Positions 7,476 to 45,616 of a stretch of DNA of 64,000 bases are shown here, piece by piece; position 1 is the first letter of the stretch; the number at the start of each line of letters is the position of its first letter. Both the position numbers and the translations under genes were made by a program. Under the pieces are notes generated by a model. The model searched no databases, was not told the DNA's origin, and saw only the letters and a program-made list of their open reading frames with translations. The stretch is from Spirochaetota bacterium. Its GTDB lineage: Bacteria; Spirochaetota; JAAYUW01; JAOAHJ01. The DNA lies in NCBI GenBank assembly GCA_026415295.1, contig JAOAHJ010000023.1, positions 1 to 64,000 on the forward strand, read 5' to 3'.

Positions 7476-10211
7476 TTATTTATATTTATCAATTTTAACA
7501 ACTTTATATTTCTTTCTATCCTGTTCATTTATAAATGTTTCATTAATTTTTTTATTTAGTAAAGATTGACCTAAAGCAGTTTCATAAGAAATAATATTTT
7601 TAGATAAGTCCACATCCCATTTGCCCAGAATAGTATAAACAATCTCTTTATTTTCATCTAAATTTAAAAGAGTAACTTTTGTTCCAATAGAAATCTTAGA
7701 AGTATCTATATTATTAAAATCTATTTCTCTCGCTTTATTCAAATCTTCTTGTATTGTCGCTGCTTCTTCATTCAATTCTTGTAATCTTTCCCTCGCTGCT
7801 ATATATTCTGCATTTTCTCTTAAATCACCTTTCTCTTTAGCTTGCATCATTTCGTTATTTGTTCTTGGAATTTCAACTTGAATAAGATTTTGCAAGTATC
7901 TTTGTTTCTCAATTATAGATTCTCTTGTAACGAAAAAGATATTTTCCTTTTCTTCCTTTTCTTCTTCTAGCCCAAGTTCTTTAATATATTCTGTAAAATA
8001 CTTAGATAAAATAATTTTAAACTCTACTATATGCTCTGCTTTCATATCTTTAATTCTAAAGAATAATTTAGGAATCTTTTTTAATGTATCAATATTCTTT
8101 TTTTCAGTATATATTTTTTCAAGTTCTCCATCTTTAAATAAAATTTCAATTATAGAATTATATATCTTTCTATTTGCAACTGTATTTATCTTTTGAATTA
8201 AAGCTTTGTTAATATTATCAAGTAAATTTACAAGAAGAAGGATAATTTCCTCTTTATTTATATCAAAACCAACTGATAAATCTTTAAAAAATAAATTCTT
8301 ACAATACCATATAAATAAATCTGGATTTTCTCTATAATTTTTTAAAACATCTTTTATTATTTCATTGATAGCTGATTTCTCTTCCTTAAAAATTAAGAAG
8401 TTTAATGCATATTTTGAACCATATTTTTTAAGATAATTTATAAAAATATTCTTCCAATCAGAAACATATCTGTAAATATTGTCTAAATAGATCTTTTCAA
8501 GATAAGGATCAGAAATACTAAAATAAAATTTATTATTAGCTTTTAATTGTTCAAACAATTCTTCAATAGAAAAAGGAAAATTTATATTCAAATCTGGATA
8601 CATTTTTTTTAAATCTTTAAGTATTAAATATGCAATAACAAAATTTTGTGATACTTCTAAATCTGCACTTATTAATTTATTTAAATAACCTATCATAAAA
8701 GAAAAATTTTCAGAATTTAAGTCCCCACCACTATCAATAAATTTTTTGAGCACTTTTGCTTTATCAAATATATCTGATGTTGATTTAAACTCTTCCAATA
8801 TAGAATCTTCAAAAGAAACAGGTTTATCTCTTAAAAAATATTCATTGTTTTTATCAAAAGATTTTGTAAATAATGGGTCATTTTTTAATATTTCTTTTGC
8901 TCTTTCCCATAAACTATTCCAGTTTTTTTCTTCTATGATATTATTCTTAATTAGATATTTTTTAATATCTTGAGAAGTACCTTTCCCTCCAATTGATTTT
9001 AGTGTTCTTTTAATAACCTCTCCAGGGTTATTTTTAATTAATTCATTGAGCTCATTCTCTTTCACCTTCTTCATAACTGAAAGATCATCTGAAGGAAGAA
9101 TAACTAAAGATTTTATAGCCATATCTATATCCATTTGATGATCCTTCTTTATATCAAAATCTATAACTAAAAAATTATTTTTAATATCTTTAATATATCC
9201 AACACCAAGTTTTGAATGAAAAACAAAATTGCTTTTGTCAAAAGAGATATATTTCTCAAATATTTCAATTGCATCATAAAGATTTTTCCAAGTTTGATTT
9301 AATTGGCTCTTTTTTAAGCAATCTTCAAAATTGGAGTTATTAGTATAAATATTTCTATATGCATTAATAATCTTTTGCCTTAATTCAGTAGCTTTTATAT
9401 CTTTAAATTTTTGTGGTATATATTTATAAATAGTCTTAATAGTTTTTATAATAATGTCCCAGTTTTTTCCCTCTTCTGCTTTTAATATTAACCCTTCTCC
9501 TAATTTTAAAGCAAGACCACTGCCAATATTGATTATATTATTATTATTAGTAATAGTCATAGAGCCTATTTTTTCTAGATAATCAAAAAGAAAATCATTA
9601 TTTTTTTGACTACTCAATTCTACAATTTTATTCCAATAAGTTTCTATTTCCGATATATTTTTATTTTTTATAAAATATTCAAGAATTTTCCTGTAATAAT
9701 AAATAGATTTTTCAATTATTTGTTTATCTTCAAAGTACTTTGCTAGCCTTCTTGTAGTTTTTATCTCTGAATAATCAAGTTTAGCAAGCTTTTCAAGATA
9801 AGGAATAATTTTATCTTCACTTTCTTTTTCCAACTCAAGTATATTTATATATTCAGTTAGAAGATTTTTTGATGATCCATATTCTAAAAATTTTTCACAT
9901 AAAAATTTAGCAATATTATTTTTTTTATTTTCTTTAAATATTGAAATTAATTTTTCACAATTAGAAAAGTCATTAAATCCAGTTTTTAGATATAATATTT
10001 GAGATATATATAAAGAAATAATAGAATTTGGAAAAACTTTTAGAGAATTTTCACAAATATCCATAGCTTCATCAAGCTTATCTTCTTTTATAATTCTATC
10101 AATTAAATCATCATACTTTAAAAAAGTATTTGTTGTTATTTCAGAAATTGAAGTTCTAGCCCATTTTTCTTGTTTTATCAAATCACTCAAATTTTCTAAA
10201 ACATTAACCAT
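7476..10211 (-). CDS. greA: Giant GreA transcription elongation factor with long N-terminal repeat region
   Basis: 911 residues; ATG with AGGAG upstream. Seen: the last 155 residues (about 757-911) are a GreA module, with the coiled coil carrying GDLRENAEY (795-803; the Asp and Glu that act in RNA cleavage are present) and an FKBP-like C-terminal domain. The first 750 residues are helical and TPR-like, with a middle segment (GVGYIKDI... LPSDDLSV... GGKGTSQDIKK). Known: GreA rescues backtracked RNA polymerase by stimulating transcript cleavage. Ordinary GreA is about 158 residues; Borrelia and Treponema have versions near 900 residues. It is 12 bases downstream of the TPR gene at 10224 and probably co-transcribed. 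Confidence 0.9.
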   Translation of the reverse strand: MVNVLENLSDLIKQEKWARTSISEITTNTFLKYDDLIDRIIKEDKLDEAMDICENSLKVFPNSIISLYISQILYLKTGFNDFSNCEKLISIFKENKKNNIAKFLCEKFLEYGSSKNLLTEYINILELEKESEDKIIPYLEKLAKLDYSEIKTTRRLAKYFEDKQIIEKSIYYYRKILEYFIKNKNISEIETYWNKIVELSSQKNNDFLFDYLEKIGSMTITNNNNIINIGSGLALKLGEGLILKAEEGKNWDIIIKTIKTIYKYIPQKFKDIKATELRQKIINAYRNIYTNNSNFEDCLKKSQLNQTWKNLYDAIEIFEKYISFDKSNFVFHSKLGVGYIKDIKNNFLVIDFDIKKDHQMDIDMAIKSLVILPSDDLSVMKKVKENELNELIKNNPGEVIKRTLKSIGGKGTSQDIKKYLIKNNIIEEKNWNSLWERAKEILKNDPLFTKSFDKNNEYFLRDKPVSFEDSILEEFKSTSDIFDKAKVLKKFIDSGGDLNSENFSFMIGYLNKLISADLEVSQNFVIAYLILKDLKKMYPDLNINFPFSIEELFEQLKANNKFYFSISDPYLEKIYLDNIYRYVSDWKNIFINYLKKYGSKYALNFLIFKEEKSAINEIIKDVLKNYRENPDLFIWYCKNLFFKDLSVGFDINKEEIILLLVNLLDNINKALIQKINTVANRKIYNSIIEILFKDGELEKIYTEKKNIDTLKKIPKLFFRIKDMKAEHIVEFKIILSKYFTEYIKELGLEEEKEEKENIFFVTRESIIEKQRYLQNLIQVEIPRTNNEMMQAKEKGDLRENAEYIAARERLQELNEEAATIQEDLNKAREIDFNNIDTSKISIGTKVTLLNLDENKEIVYTILGKWDVDLSKNIISYETALGQSLLNKKINETFINEQDRKKYKVVKIDKYK

Positions 10212-38871: not shown

Positions 38872-41800
38872 ATGATAACTACTCCTTTTATTCACCTACA
38901 TAATCATACTGAATTTTCTCTACTTGATGGTGCTTGTAAAGTTAAAAAACTTGTTAAAAAAACTATTGATTTTGGCATGCCTGGAGTAGCAATTACTGAT
39001 CATGGTAATATTTTTGGAGCTATAAAATTCTACGAAGAATGTAAATCAGTTGGAATTAAACCTATAATTGGTCAAGAGTTTTACATTTCAGAAAATTCAA
39101 GGTTTGACAAATCAAAAGACAATAAAACATTTCATTTAGTATTAATTGCATTAGATAAAGAAGGGTATAAAAATTTAATTAAGTTATCATCTTTAGCTTA
39201 TATTGAAGGATTTTATAAAAAACCTAGAATAGATATAGAATTACTTAAAAAATATAATAAAGGTCTTATATGCTTAACTGCTTGTCTATTAGGTGAAGTA
39301 CCTTATTATGCTAAAATTGCTTATGAAAATAAAAATTATGAGAACAAATTAAAAAATGTAATTTCAAAATATCTAGATATATTTGGTAATGAAAGATTTT
39401 TTCTCGAATTAATGGACCATGGTATTGAAGACCAAATAAAAATAGGAAAAAAGTTTTTGGAAATTTCTGAAATATATGGTCTAAATATGGTTATAACAAA
39501 TGATAATCATTTTATTTCCAAAGAAGAATCTTCTTTTCATGATTTAATGCTTGCTGTACAAACTCAAGATAATATAAATAACAAAGATAGATTTAAATTT
39601 GAATCTGATCAGATGTATTTTAAATCTTATGAAGAGATGAAAAACATATTTAATTTCTTACCAGATAATGTTAAAAATGAAGCATTTAAAAATACTATAA
39701 AAATCTTTGAAATGGTTAATTTGGAACTTGAATTTGGCAAATATTTTCTTCCAGATTTCAAAGTTCCGGAAAATTTATCACAAAAAGAGTATTTAAGAAA
39801 AATTGCTGAAGATGGGCTCAAAAAAAAATATAAAGAGATAACTGATGAAATAAGAAATAGATTTGAATACGAATTTTCTGTTATTGAAAAGATGGGATTT
39901 ATTGGCTATTTTTTAATAGTTTGGGATATTATCAAATGGTCAAAAGATCATGGTATTCTTGTTGGACCAGGTAGAGGATCTGCTGGAGGATCAATATTAG
40001 CCTATGCTTTAGATATTACTGATATAGATCCAATAAAATACAATCTCTTATTTGAAAGATTCTTAAATCCAGATAGAATTTCTATGCCAGATATTGATAT
40101 TGATATTCAAGATACTAAAAGAGACAAAGTTATTCAACATCTTAAAGATTTATATGGAGAAAATCATGTTTGCAATATAAACGCATTAAATAAACTTAAA
40201 GCTAAAAATGCTATAAGAGATGCAGCGAGAGCTCTTGGGTATTCTGCAGAAGAATCACTATATATTACAAAATTGATGGGTGATGATGATTTATCTACAG
40301 AATATGAATTAAATGAACAATTTAGAAATTATATTGATAAAGATGAAAAAAATAAAAATCTATTTGAAAATGCTAAGTTTTTAGAAAATCAATATAGGCA
40401 AACATCACTTCATGCAGCTGGCGTAGTAATAACTCCAGATGAAATTACTGAATTAATACCAGTATATGTTTCATCCCAAGAACAAAAAATAATCGCAAGT
40501 CAATATGATAAAGATGATCTTGAAAAACTTGGTTTTCTAAAAATGGATATATTAGGGCTGGGGAATCTAACTATTATAGAAGAAACAATTAAAAATATAA
40601 AAATAAACAAAAATAAAAATATTGTTTTATCTGAAATAAATTTAAATGATGAAAAAACATTTAATTTATTAAAAGAAGGAAATACAATCGGTGTTTTCCA
40701 GTTTGAATCAACAGGAATGATTAAACTACTTAAAAAGCTGAAACCAGATTCAATTGAAGATATAAGTGTTGCTTTAGCTTTATATAGACCTGGTCCTATA
40801 AAATCAGGTTATCTTGATATGTATATAGAAAGAAAACATGATAAAAGTAAAATTGAATATCCATTTGAATCATTAAAAAGTGTTCTTCAAGAAACATACG
40901 GAATTCTTGTTTATCAAGAACAAATAATGAAAACTGCTATGATTCTTTCAGGCTTCACTGGAGGGCAAGCAGATATTCTTAGAAAGGCTATTGGTAAAAA
41001 ACAGGGAACTTTAATAGAAAAATTAAAAAAAGATTTTATTGAAGGTGCTGTAAAAAATGGGTATTTAAGAGATAAAGTTGAAAAATTGTATAATGATATA
41101 GAAAATTTTGCAAGTTACTGTTTCAACAAATCACATTCAGTTGCGTATGCTCATATAAGCTATATTACAGCTTACCTAAAAGCAAACTACCCATTAGAAT
41201 ATATGACAGCAATACTTAATTATAACCTTGGAATTAAAATCGAAGATTTTAAAATTTATTTAGAAGATACAAAATTGCAAAATATTAAGATCCTAGAACC
41301 AGATATAAATAAATCTGATATAATTTTCAAAATAGAAGGTAAAAACATTAGATACGGACTATCTGCAATAAAAGGTGTGGGAGAGGCTGTAGCACAATAT
41401 ATAATAGAAGAAAGAGAAAAAAATGGTTTATACAAAAATTTTATTGATTTTATAAAAAGAGTCAATAAATCGAAAGTAAATAAAAAAGTACTTGAAACGC
41501 TTATTTCAATTGGTTCCTTTGATTTTTGTAACATAAGGAGAGAAATTTTACTTGAAATTCTTCCAGAAATTCTTGAATATTTTGAAAAAAATGAATCAGA
41601 AAAAAATGATCTCTTTACCAGCATTGACATAAATAAAGATGAAATATTTTTTAAGAATTTAGTTAATAGTTATAAAAATAAAGTAAAATTATGGGACCAA
41701 CAAAAGTTTTTTGAAATACAACTTGAATATTTAGGTGACTTCATTACAATTTCACCTTTTGACAATTATTTGAGAGAAATCTTTTATTATAATTCATATG

Positions 41801-42336
41801 AAATTGATGAATTAATATATGATGAAAATTATAACAATAAAAAAATTCAAATGATAGGCTATATAGAAAAAATCCAGAGAAAAAAAAATAAAGATAATAA
41901 AGAATTTTTTATAGTTTTTGTTAATTTTTATTTTTTTAAAACAAATATTTTTGTATTCCAAAATGGAGATAATAGCACTTACAACAAAATTAAAGAATTA
42001 GAAAAAGAAAATGATTATTCATTATGGAACTTTGAAATTAATATAAAAAGAATTCCAGAAAGAAAAGAAGCTATGCTTATTTTATCAAACATTCATGATA
42101 AAGATTCAATTATAAAAGCCCCATTAAAAAAAATAAAAATATTAATTGATAAAAATTTTGAAGAAATGGATATTAAAAAAATCAAAACTATTATAAAAGA
42201 AAACCCAGGAAAAACAGAAGTTTATTTAAAAGTAGAAAACGAAATTGGAATATTAAAATTGAATAATAGCTTTGATGATTCAAAAATAAGTTTATTTGAA
42301 AACATTAAATCAATCAAAGAACTCATTAAAAGTTAG
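38872..42336 (+). CDS. dnaE: DNA polymerase III subunit alpha
   Basis: 1154 residues, near the E. coli length (1160). Seen: PHP domain with HLHNHTEFSLLDG (6-18), the palm catalytic aspartates in MPDIDIDI, GRGSAGGS, the fingers block ALYRPGPI and the HxH-like FNKSHSVAYA, then a C-terminal OB/tau-binding region that is more divergent and lysine-rich. Known: the replicative polymerase; DnaE1 type, no exonuclease domain. The ribosome site TGGAG is 13 bases before the ATG. It converges with dnaA, whose stop is 13 bases beyond its own. Confidence 0.97.
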   Translation: MITTPFIHLHNHTEFSLLDGACKVKKLVKKTIDFGMPGVAITDHGNIFGAIKFYEECKSVGIKPIIGQEFYISENSRFDKSKDNKTFHLVLIALDKEGYKNLIKLSSLAYIEGFYKKPRIDIELLKKYNKGLICLTACLLGEVPYYAKIAYENKNYENKLKNVISKYLDIFGNERFFLELMDHGIEDQIKIGKKFLEISEIYGLNMVITNDNHFISKEESSFHDLMLAVQTQDNINNKDRFKFESDQMYFKSYEEMKNIFNFLPDNVKNEAFKNTIKIFEMVNLELEFGKYFLPDFKVPENLSQKEYLRKIAEDGLKKKYKEITDEIRNRFEYEFSVIEKMGFIGYFLIVWDIIKWSKDHGILVGPGRGSAGGSILAYALDITDIDPIKYNLLFERFLNPDRISMPDIDIDIQDTKRDKVIQHLKDLYGENHVCNINALNKLKAKNAIRDAARALGYSAEESLYITKLMGDDDLSTEYELNEQFRNYIDKDEKNKNLFENAKFLENQYRQTSLHAAGVVITPDEITELIPVYVSSQEQKIIASQYDKDDLEKLGFLKMDILGLGNLTIIEETIKNIKINKNKNIVLSEINLNDEKTFNLLKEGNTIGVFQFESTGMIKLLKKLKPDSIEDISVALALYRPGPIKSGYLDMYIERKHDKSKIEYPFESLKSVLQETYGILVYQEQIMKTAMILSGFTGGQADILRKAIGKKQGTLIEKLKKDFIEGAVKNGYLRDKVEKLYNDIENFASYCFNKSHSVAYAHISYITAYLKANYPLEYMTAILNYNLGIKIEDFKIYLEDTKLQNIKILEPDINKSDIIFKIEGKNIRYGLSAIKGVGEAVAQYIIEEREKNGLYKNFIDFIKRVNKSKVNKKVLETLISIGSFDFCNIRREILLEILPEILEYFEKNESEKNDLFTSIDINKDEIFFKNLVNSYKNKVKLWDQQKFFEIQLEYLGDFITISPFDNYLREIFYYNSYEIDELIYDENYNNKKIQMIGYIEKIQRKKNKDNKEFFIVFVNFYFFKTNIFVFQNGDNSTYNKIKELEKENDYSLWNFEINIKRIPERKEAMLILSNIHDKDSIIKAPLKKIKILIDKNFEEMDIKKIKTIIKENPGKTEVYLKVENEIGILKLNNSFDDSKISLFENIKSIKELIKS

Positions 42337-42349
42337 CTCTTATAAAAAA

Positions 42350-43804
42350 TCAACTTAATAGCTCTTTTTTTATAGTCTCCACAGTTATCCTTAAAACACT
42401 ATCCTCTTTTATAAGTGAATCTATTTTAGAATAAGCATGTAAAATAGTTGAGTGATCTTTTCCTCCAAAAGAAAGGCCAATTTCAGTAGTAGAGTAATTT
42501 GTAAGTTCTCTCGCTAAATACATTGCTACATTCCTTGCTAAAGCAATAGATTGATTTCTTTTTTTAGATTTAATATCAACAGTCGAAACTTTGAATGATT
42601 CTGCAACTTTTCTTATAATATCATCTATAACTATAACTTTTTTATCATCAACATATTTGAGTTGATCTTTTAATATTTCAGAAGCTTTTTCTGGGTTTAT
42701 TTCTGATGTATCAACTGCAAAAATATCACAGTATGCAATTATTTTTATAAGTGCAGATTCTAAATCCCTTATAGAACTTTTAACATTTTTAGCAATATAG
42801 TGTATCAGTTCATTTGAAAATTTTCTTCCTTCAATTGATGCTTTTTTGTTAAGAATAGCTACTCTTGTTTCAAAATCTGGTGATACAATTTTTACAGTTA
42901 ACCCCCATTCCATTCTATTTCTGACCCTTTCTTCAAAATCTTGCAAATCTTTAGGTGGTCTATCACATGTAAATACCATCTGTTTTCCAGCTTGATGAAG
43001 AATATTGAAAGTATGAAAAAATTCTTCCATAGAAGCATCTTTCTTTTCTAAAAATTGAATATCATCTAGTAGTAAAATATCAGCTTTTCTATATTTCAAT
43101 CTAAAAAATTCCATCTGCTTATTTTGTAAAGAATAGATAAATTCATTAACAAATTGATCTACAGGTATATAAACCACTTTCAAATCAGGAAAATGTTCTA
43201 TAATATAATGTGCAATTGCTTGTAATATATGGGTTTTCCCCAAACCAACAGAACCATAAATAAATAAAGGATTAAAATTCTGACCTGGAAATTTTGCAAC
43301 TCTTAATGCAGCTGCAGCACAAAATTTATTATTATTTCCAATAACAAAATTATCAAAGGTATATTTTGGATTTAAGTGAAATGCTTGATTATAATTTAAT
43401 ATAGATTCTCTATCATTCTTTTTATTATTATCTTCCTTTACTCCAATCTCATTAATTAAATTTTTCACTTTTTCATCTAAATTTTTACCTAAATTATTTT
43501 CTTTTAAATTGATATTAATTTTTTCTTTTAAATCAGAGCTAACTTTTTTTTCTTTTACTTGTAATTTAATTTTTGGATCTTTATTAATTATCTCCTTCAA
43601 ATTTTCATAAAAACAAATAAAGAATTCTTTTTCAAATTTATCCTTCGAAATAATGGAAGGAAAATATAAAATAAATTCCTCACCATTTTTTTCAAATTCT
43701 ATATTATTAAACCAAACATTATAAGAAAACTCATCGATTATGTTCTTTGAAATCATATAATTAATCAAATCTGAAAAAATTTTATCCTTTACCATCTCTG
43801 ACAT
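42350..43804 (-). CDS. dnaA: Chromosomal replication initiator protein DnaA
   Basis: 484 residues from the ATG at 43804. The frame runs back to a GTG at 43819, but then the AAGGA ribosome site would be coding, so the ATG is preferred. Seen: domain I (about 5-85), a Lys/Asn-rich linker, the AAA+ domain starting YTFDNFVIGNNNKF with Walker A GSVGLGKTH and Walker B LLLDDIQF, and a C-terminal DNA-binding domain with GGKDHSTILHAYSKI, the helix-turn-helix signature that reads DnaA boxes. Known: opens oriC and loads helicase. No dnaN, recF or gyrB follows. Confidence 0.97.
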   Translation of the reverse strand: MSEMVKDKIFSDLINYMISKNIIDEFSYNVWFNNIEFEKNGEEFILYFPSIISKDKFEKEFFICFYENLKEIINKDPKIKLQVKEKKVSSDLKEKININLKENNLGKNLDEKVKNLINEIGVKEDNNKKNDRESILNYNQAFHLNPKYTFDNFVIGNNNKFCAAAALRVAKFPGQNFNPLFIYGSVGLGKTHILQAIAHYIIEHFPDLKVVYIPVDQFVNEFIYSLQNKQMEFFRLKYRKADILLLDDIQFLEKKDASMEEFFHTFNILHQAGKQMVFTCDRPPKDLQDFEERVRNRMEWGLTVKIVSPDFETRVAILNKKASIEGRKFSNELIHYIAKNVKSSIRDLESALIKIIAYCDIFAVDTSEINPEKASEILKDQLKYVDDKKVIVIDDIIRKVAESFKVSTVDIKSKKRNQSIALARNVAMYLARELTNYSTTEIGLSFGGKDHSTILHAYSKIDSLIKEDSVLRITVETIKKELLS

Positions 43805-43822
43805 AAAAAATTCCTTCACAAG

Positions 43823-43831
43823 TTATTCACA
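43823..43831 (+). promoter_or_regulatory. DnaA box 1
   Basis: TTATTCACA is an exact match to the TTATNCACA consensus. It lies 19 bases upstream of the preferred dnaA ATG, overlapping the leader of the dnaA message, where bound DnaA could block transcription. Confidence 0.75.
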
Positions 43832-43965
43832 ATTAAAATTTTTAAAATTATAAAATTTTATAAATTTAAATTATAATATTTTATACAATCCTTAAATATC
43901 AATAATTTAAGGAATTCAAAAAAATAAAAAATAATAAATCTTTATTGATTATATAAACTAATAAT

Positions 43966-43985
43966 TTATTCACATTTTATTCACA
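43966..43985 (+). promoter_or_regulatory. Tandem DnaA boxes 2 and 3
   Basis: Two TTATTCACA boxes at 43966-43974 and 43977-43985 in direct orientation, starting 11 bases apart, or about one helical turn. Such phased tandem boxes favour cooperative DnaA binding on one face of the helix. Weaker look-alikes (TTATACATT near 43995, TTATACAAT near 43881) flank them. Confidence 0.75.
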
Positions 43986-44170
43986 TTTTACTTTTTATAC
44001 ATTGTTTAAATATTATATTATATTTAAAAAATTTGTCTATAAAATTTATTTAAGAATTATTTAAAATAAATTAAATTACTATTTGCAATTATAAAGATTT
44101 ATTAAAATATATTGAAAAATATTAAGTTTTCCAGAATTTATAATTCTATAATATAATAAATGCAATTTAA

Positions 44171-45616
44171 CTAATTAAATTCTTCATAAAACATTTTATA
44201 AAAACTAAATGTTTCATATAAATCTGCTTTAGAAATAATTTCAAACGGAGCATGCATTCCTAGAACTGGAACACCAGCATCAATAGTTGAAATTCCAAAA
44301 AAAGATATATATTTTGCTACAGTGCCACCACCACCTTCATCAACCTTTCCTAAAGTTGCATATTGCCATAAAATATTATTTTTATTCAATAAATTTCTTA
44401 ACTTTGCAAAAAACTCAGGATCTGCATCGTTTGATGCACTTTTACCTCCTGAACCAGTATATTTAAGCAAAGATACCCCATGAGACAAATAAGGAGTATT
44501 TTGTTGATCAAAAACAGATTTATATAATGGATCAAAGGCTGCTGAAACATCTGAAGAAATGCAATAAGATTTTCTTAATGCTTTGCTTATACTGTATGGT
44601 GAATCTTTTTTAAATACCTTTGCCAATATAGAATAAAGATGGTATAAAATCATAGAATCAGCACCAGTCATACCACTGGAGCCGATCTCTTCCTTATCAA
44701 GTAACAAAGCTATTGATATTTTTTTAACTTTATTTGATTCGATTAAAGACTTACAAGCAAGATATGAACAAACTCTATCATCATGCCCATAACCACCTAT
44801 TAAACTTCTGTCAAACCCGACATCATAAGCTTTTAGAGCTGGAACAACTTCTATTTCAGCAGATATAAAATCCTCTTCTTTAATACCATAATCTTTATTT
44901 AATTTTTCAAGTATATTTAATTTTACTTTTTCTTTAATCTTTTTATCTTTTATTGGAATATTGCCAGCAATTAGTATTAAATTTTCTCCTTCTATACCAT
45001 TTAGTAATTTTTTTTCACCTTGAACCTTTTGTGCTAAATGTGGAAGAAGATCAGATATTACAAAAACAGGATCATTTTCTTTTTCACCAATAGTAATTTC
45101 TACAGATTTACCATTCTCTAAAAATACTATTCCATGCAAAGCAAGTGGAATATTTAACCATTGGTATTTTTTAATACCTCCATAATAATGAGTTCTCAAT
45201 AAAGCAAGTTCACTATCTTCATATAAAGGATTCTGTTTAAGATCAAGTCTTGGAACATCATTGTGTGCAGCTATTATATTTAACCCATTTTCAAAGTCCT
45301 CTTCCCCTACTCTTCCTATTATTAAAGCTTTATTTATAATATTTAAATAAAAACCATCTCCTTTTTTTAGTTGGATATTCTCATCTTCAATGTTAATGTA
45401 AGATTTTTTTTTCAAAATATTTAGAAAATAGTTAACCACCTCTCGTTCAGTTTTACATTCAGAAAGAAATCTTTTATAATCTTCTGAAAGTTCAAAAGCT
45501 TTTTTTATTTCTACATCTTCTTTAACTTCCCAAAAATTTTTAGATTTATAAGACAATTCCTCATTAAGTTTTTCATAATAAGATTTTTCCTCATTTTTAG
45601 TTTCTTTATTATTCAT
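44171..45616 (-). CDS. M18-family aminopeptidase
   Basis: 481 residues, GAGGAG ribosome site. Seen: AAHNDVPRLDLKQNPLYED, the M18 form of the first zinc-ligand block (His and Asp), GYGHDDRVCSYLA with the bridging Asp, DKEEIGSSGMTGADS with the catalytic Glu pair, SSDVSAAFDP and a late LGMHAPFEIISKADL with the terminal His. Known: M18 enzymes are dodecameric di-zinc aminopeptidases, often preferring acidic N-terminal residues. They take part in peptide turnover in the cytoplasm. It is the gene next to the candidate oriC. Confidence 0.93.
   Translation of the reverse strand: MNNKETKNEEKSYYEKLNEELSYKSKNFWEVKEDVEIKKAFELSEDYKRFLSECKTEREVVNYFLNILKKKSYINIEDENIQLKKGDGFYLNIINKALIIGRVGEEDFENGLNIIAAHNDVPRLDLKQNPLYEDSELALLRTHYYGGIKKYQWLNIPLALHGIVFLENGKSVEITIGEKENDPVFVISDLLPHLAQKVQGEKKLLNGIEGENLILIAGNIPIKDKKIKEKVKLNILEKLNKDYGIKEEDFISAEIEVVPALKAYDVGFDRSLIGGYGHDDRVCSYLACKSLIESNKVKKISIALLLDKEEIGSSGMTGADSMILYHLYSILAKVFKKDSPYSISKALRKSYCISSDVSAAFDPLYKSVFDQQNTPYLSHGVSLLKYTGSGGKSASNDADPEFFAKLRNLLNKNNILWQYATLGKVDEGGGGTVAKYISFFGISTIDAGVPVLGMHAPFEIISKADLYETFSFYKMFYEEFN

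Follow-up and report, generated by a model that had tools for sequence, protein, structure and literature searches.

Promoters of dnaA, the gene of the chromosomal replication initiator, are known to be autoregulated. In E. coli, autorepression by DnaA acting via the boxes in the dnaA promoter has been established (PMC5835720). At the same time, according to the Ori-Finder data, only 342 of 568 chromosomes have an oriC that both adjoins dnaA and lies close to the skew switch, and in Bradyrhizobiaceae oriC is located next to gidA (PMC2275245). Origins away from dnaA are thus common, and the case described here is ordinary in kind.

Three relatives of the studied genome from the same order (G001–G003) retain the canonical arrangement, with rpmH and dnaA-dnaN-recF-gyrBA kept together. 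In G001, yidC-yidD-rnpA-rpmH is found on the left and dnaA-dnaN-recF-gyrB-gyrA on the right, and mnmG-parS-rsmG-parA-parB lies about 10–12 kb from the dnaA block. Within the phylum, dnaN adjoins dnaA in at least 16 of 27 dnaA loci, as judged from the 1.5 kb of flank examined. The studied genome harbors the same genes as the canonical rpmH-dnaA-dnaN-recF-gyrB origin, but the block is broken: dnaA is alone on contig C23 at 44 kb; rpmH-rnpA-yidD-yidC-jag-mnmE is found on the same contig at 109.5–114.7 kb; dnaN-recF-DUF721-gyrB-gyrA, together with a helicase gene, occupies the end of contig C39; mnmG-parAB resides on contig C8. That this lineage, represented by one genome of its family, lost the old arrangement is the simpler reading of this breakup.

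The window (64,000 nucleotides) corresponds to bases 1–64000 of C23 (216,860 bp) in an assembly of 2,096,775 bp and 39 contigs that is 96% complete. Its dnaA gene (minus strand, TIGR00362, 474 bits; Pfam Bac_DnaA and Bac_DnaA_C) was called at 42350–43819 as an ORF with a GTG start; the ATG at 43804, preceded by GAAGGAA, is the likelier start. The encoded protein is 58–60% identical to DnaA from the three same-order genomes, and a DnaA search of the contig collection returned matches from distant genomes only. The place of rpmH upstream of dnaA is taken by a gene of M18 aminopeptidase (44171–45616, minus strand; NF002600, 647 bits). Unlike the canonical origin, the gene calls in the window reveal no divergent gene upstream of dnaA, and none of dnaN, rpmH and gyrB is near dnaA in this genome. 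The largely uniform gene orientation noticed in the original prediction was borne out: to the right of 44 kb, every one of the main ORFs (19) is encoded by the minus strand, and those to the left are mixed, mainly minus. The gene of the DNA polymerase III alpha subunit, dnaE, is situated tail to tail with dnaA (38872–42336, plus strand). Elsewhere in the window, a 911-aa protein (7476–10211, minus strand) matches GreA/GreB in its final 150 residues; its long N-terminal extension has no match in Pfam.

The dnaA upstream region (43805–44170) is extremely AT-rich (10.7% G+C, 89% AT); a lower G+C content was found in only 0.3% of 400-bp windows across 1.35 Mb of the genome. It carries three exact plus-strand matches to the DnaA box TTATTCACA, at 43823–43831, 43966–43974 and 43977–43985, all inside 163 bp. 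The starts of the latter two are 11 bases, i.e., one helical turn, apart, and the first lies in what is presumably the leader, 19 bases 5′ of the dnaA ATG. A degenerate box, TCCTTCACA (43812–43820, plus strand), has two mismatches, overlaps the region of the ribosome-binding site and is weak alone; it starts 11 bases before the box at 43823 and pairs with it, so the boxes form two 11-bp-spaced pairs. Two putative promoters point towards dnaA, each upstream of DnaA boxes: distal P1 (TAGACA-16-TATAAT, 44012–44039, minus strand, 11/12 match), 27 bases before the tandem boxes, and proximal P2 (TTGATA-18-TATTAT, 43873–43902, minus strand, 10/12 match), upstream of the box at 43823. Promoter-like matches as such are not above chance in this region (9 vs. 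6.4 expected from shuffles). The −35 element of P2 is overlapped by a perfect inverted repeat, TCCTTAAAT-ATCAATA-ATTTAAGGA (43889–43913), with 9-bp arms and a 7-base loop. No terminator features were seen in this repeat, which possibly functions as an operator. The boxes, the inverted repeat and the AT-richness were all correctly read in the original prediction. The region also contains a 21-nt direct repeat (86%), TTTTATACAnTnnTTAAATAT, at 43879–43899 and 43993–44013, 114 bp apart; TTTTATACA is present in both copies.

Overall, this region is very probably an autoregulated dnaA promoter away from the origin, with replication starting on C8 at about 39.7–40.2 kb. The original prediction had left the choice between an origin with unusual gene orientation and boxes that only autoregulate dnaA; the latter option appears to be the better supported one, as it agrees with the remaining evidence and with the known behavior of dnaA promoters. 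DnaA boxes are indeed found in the promoter and leader of dnaA. The suggested mechanism would involve DnaA binding to the TTATTCACA sites upstream of its own gene, two of them one helical turn apart, and the bound protein would block or occlude one or two promoters, thereby repressing dnaA transcription. The box just ahead of the start codon and the tandem pair shortly past P1 would suit repression by leader-bound DnaA. Initiation would take place instead in a 463-bp AT-rich region of C8 with two convergent boxes. The locus resembles the E. coli dnaA promoter in that boxes lie between and downstream of the promoters and dnaA is not beside oriC; it differs in having three perfect boxes that all point the same way, including a pair spaced by 11 bp, and in that binding and repression are predicted here.

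Alternatively, the boxes might chiefly serve to titrate or reactivate DnaA, as a datA- or DARS-like site, the regulation of dnaA being secondary. In favor of this unlikely explanation, similar 11-bp box pairs occur away from dnaA. On contig C6, an AT-rich stretch flanked by genes for a SPOR-domain protein and a Kdo transferase, next to priA, harbors two TTATTCACA sites 160 bp apart (C6:51557 and 51717; L179:4316 and 4476), both of which are preceded at 11 bases by an imperfect box; the stretches read there contained no strand switch. In two relatives, clusters of DnaA boxes are situated directly upstream of rlmH (L128:1226–1363 in G001 and L132:1320–1455 in G002), at a distance from dnaA of ~16 kb and ~9 kb, respectively, and the G001 cluster is not at the strand switch of that genome. 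Still, known titration loci carry more boxes, and the placement of the boxes within the promoter and leader of dnaA, one of them close to the start codon, indicates regulation. In 1.65 Mb of sequence, the 11-base spacing was counted 9 times (the dnaA pair being counted twice) vs. ~2 for other spacings, an excess that is suggestive only. Tentatively, two 11-bp box pairs ~130–160 bp apart might constitute a DnaA-responsive module that recurs in this order (at dnaA, on C6 and at rlmH in two relatives), although the odds are against it. If real, such a module would tie the DnaA level to several genes or act as a near-origin titration site.

Another alternative is that the dnaA upstream region is a functional oriC, recently relocated together with dnaA, to which gene orientation and skew have yet to adapt. 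It has the densest cluster of perfect boxes found (three vs. two in the C8 region) in an AT-rich stretch beside dnaA, as expected of an oriC. An origin would, however, demand opposite skew signs on its two sides. The plain GC skew is misleading in this regard, since it largely tracks gene orientation in this genome (it is negative across nearly all of C23). Hence, G and C were counted at four-fold degenerate third positions in the coding-strand sense, tallied separately for each gene strand and scored as a likelihood ratio, in contig stretches amounting to 1.35 Mb of the 2.10 Mb. The four-fold skew of the majority-strand genes of a contig was ~0 to +0.12 vs. ~−0.37 in the other-strand genes; this contrast reflects the replication strand irrespective of gene direction. 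In G001, used as the positive control, the method revealed one switch on a 222-kb contig, at 50.3–56.3 kb, within ~8 kb of dnaA (47.6–49.0 kb). In G003, no switch was obtained for the canonical dnaA locus (G003:C14:1–39722), where the contrast was weak and the contig short; codon bias in gyrB and its neighbors may mask the switch. The G002 contig was too short for this test.

On C23, the minus strand leads with one sign from 0 to ~208 kb, dnaA included. The summed log-likelihood ratio is −42.9 to the left of the dnaA upstream region and −148.6 to the right of it; of the latter sum, −38.6 comes from just the first 46 kb. From this asymmetry, replication does not start at the dnaA upstream region, and the option of an origin there with unusual gene orientation is not upheld. 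There is no switch at the rpmH cluster at 109.5 kb of C23 either, and C31, C3, C38 and C39 were rejected as sites of the origin by the corrected skew in their readable portions; the apparent switches of C3 and C31 in the plain GC skew were gone after the gene-strand correction. The other contigs, read at both ends and, for most of the larger ones, in the middle, are nearly all single-sign. Beyond the window, a short origin-type sign change is present in the last 8.7 kb of C23 (C23:208303–216684; 5 of 5000 permutations), where minus-strand genes (cmk, pseudouridine synthase, GTPase and others) carry lagging-strand composition at 208–217 kb; a local inversion or a join made in the assembly may account for it.

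The true origin appears to be on C8, beside mnmG-rsmG-parA-parB. This contig displays a single origin-type switch from minus to plus, with the best split at 39.2 kb and a 2-unit support interval of 36.9–42.8 kb; none of 5000 permutations of gene order was as good. The support interval includes the candidate oriC, an intergenic stretch of 463 bp (C8:39733–40195; 10.4% G+C, 90% AT) with two perfect convergent TTATTCACA boxes, at C8:39804 (plus strand) and C8:39887 (minus strand); two such boxes were reached in 2 of 2000 shuffles. The stretch is flanked by a flavin-reductase-like gene (minus strand) and hppA (plus strand), followed by mnmG, rsmG, parA and parB (C8:42802–46993). Between mnmG and rsmG, at C8:44680, lies a parS-like site with one mismatch to TGTTNCACGTGNAACA, and no other site in the genome matches this well; a parS-like site occupies the matching position, the mnmG/rsmG junction, in G001 (61,537) and G003 (about 11,785). 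The strand switch and the AT-rich intergenic boxes coincide here with parA, parB and the genome's best parS-like site, the latter three all within ~7 kb of the candidate oriC. Similar to the gidA/mnmG origins of E. coli and Bradyrhizobiaceae, the candidate is in AT-rich intergenic DNA near mnmG; in contrast to them, it is separated from mnmG by hppA and has only two perfect boxes. The original prediction had named a skew minimum with a box cluster elsewhere, for example by dnaN or gyrB, as evidence against an origin at dnaA; elsewhere, albeit on C8, two DnaA boxes were indeed found together with a strand switch, and dnaN-recF-gyrB-gyrA on C39 is without a switch.

Since compositional skew records past replication, a very recent relocation of the origin to dnaA would leave no trace in it. 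Nevertheless, the uniform strand asymmetry over more than 200 kb around dnaA, the better candidate on C8 with its switch, parAB, parS-like site and boxes, and the setting of dnaA, lacking a divergent gene and the neighborhood of dnaN, rpmH and gyrB, together make a functional oriC at dnaA quite improbable. As to chance matches in AT-rich DNA, this explanation is highly implausible: the window-wide count of TTATNCACA is indeed near that in shuffles (5 vs. 3.5), but the cluster upstream of dnaA is far above chance, since three or more TTATTCACA boxes appeared in 0 of 2000 dinucleotide shuffles of 43805–44170 (mean 0.017), and, apart from the boxes at 43966 and 43977, no two TTATNCACA sites in the 2,096,775-bp assembly lie within 30 bp of each other, whichever of the three arrangements is considered.

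The case cautions that the origin should not be put at dnaA by default, and the strand-corrected skew test is usable on unordered metagenome contigs. The ancestral origin block of this lineage is found in four pieces: the origin signature seems to have stayed with mnmG-parS-parAB, and dnaA likely moved off carrying its box-rich promoter.
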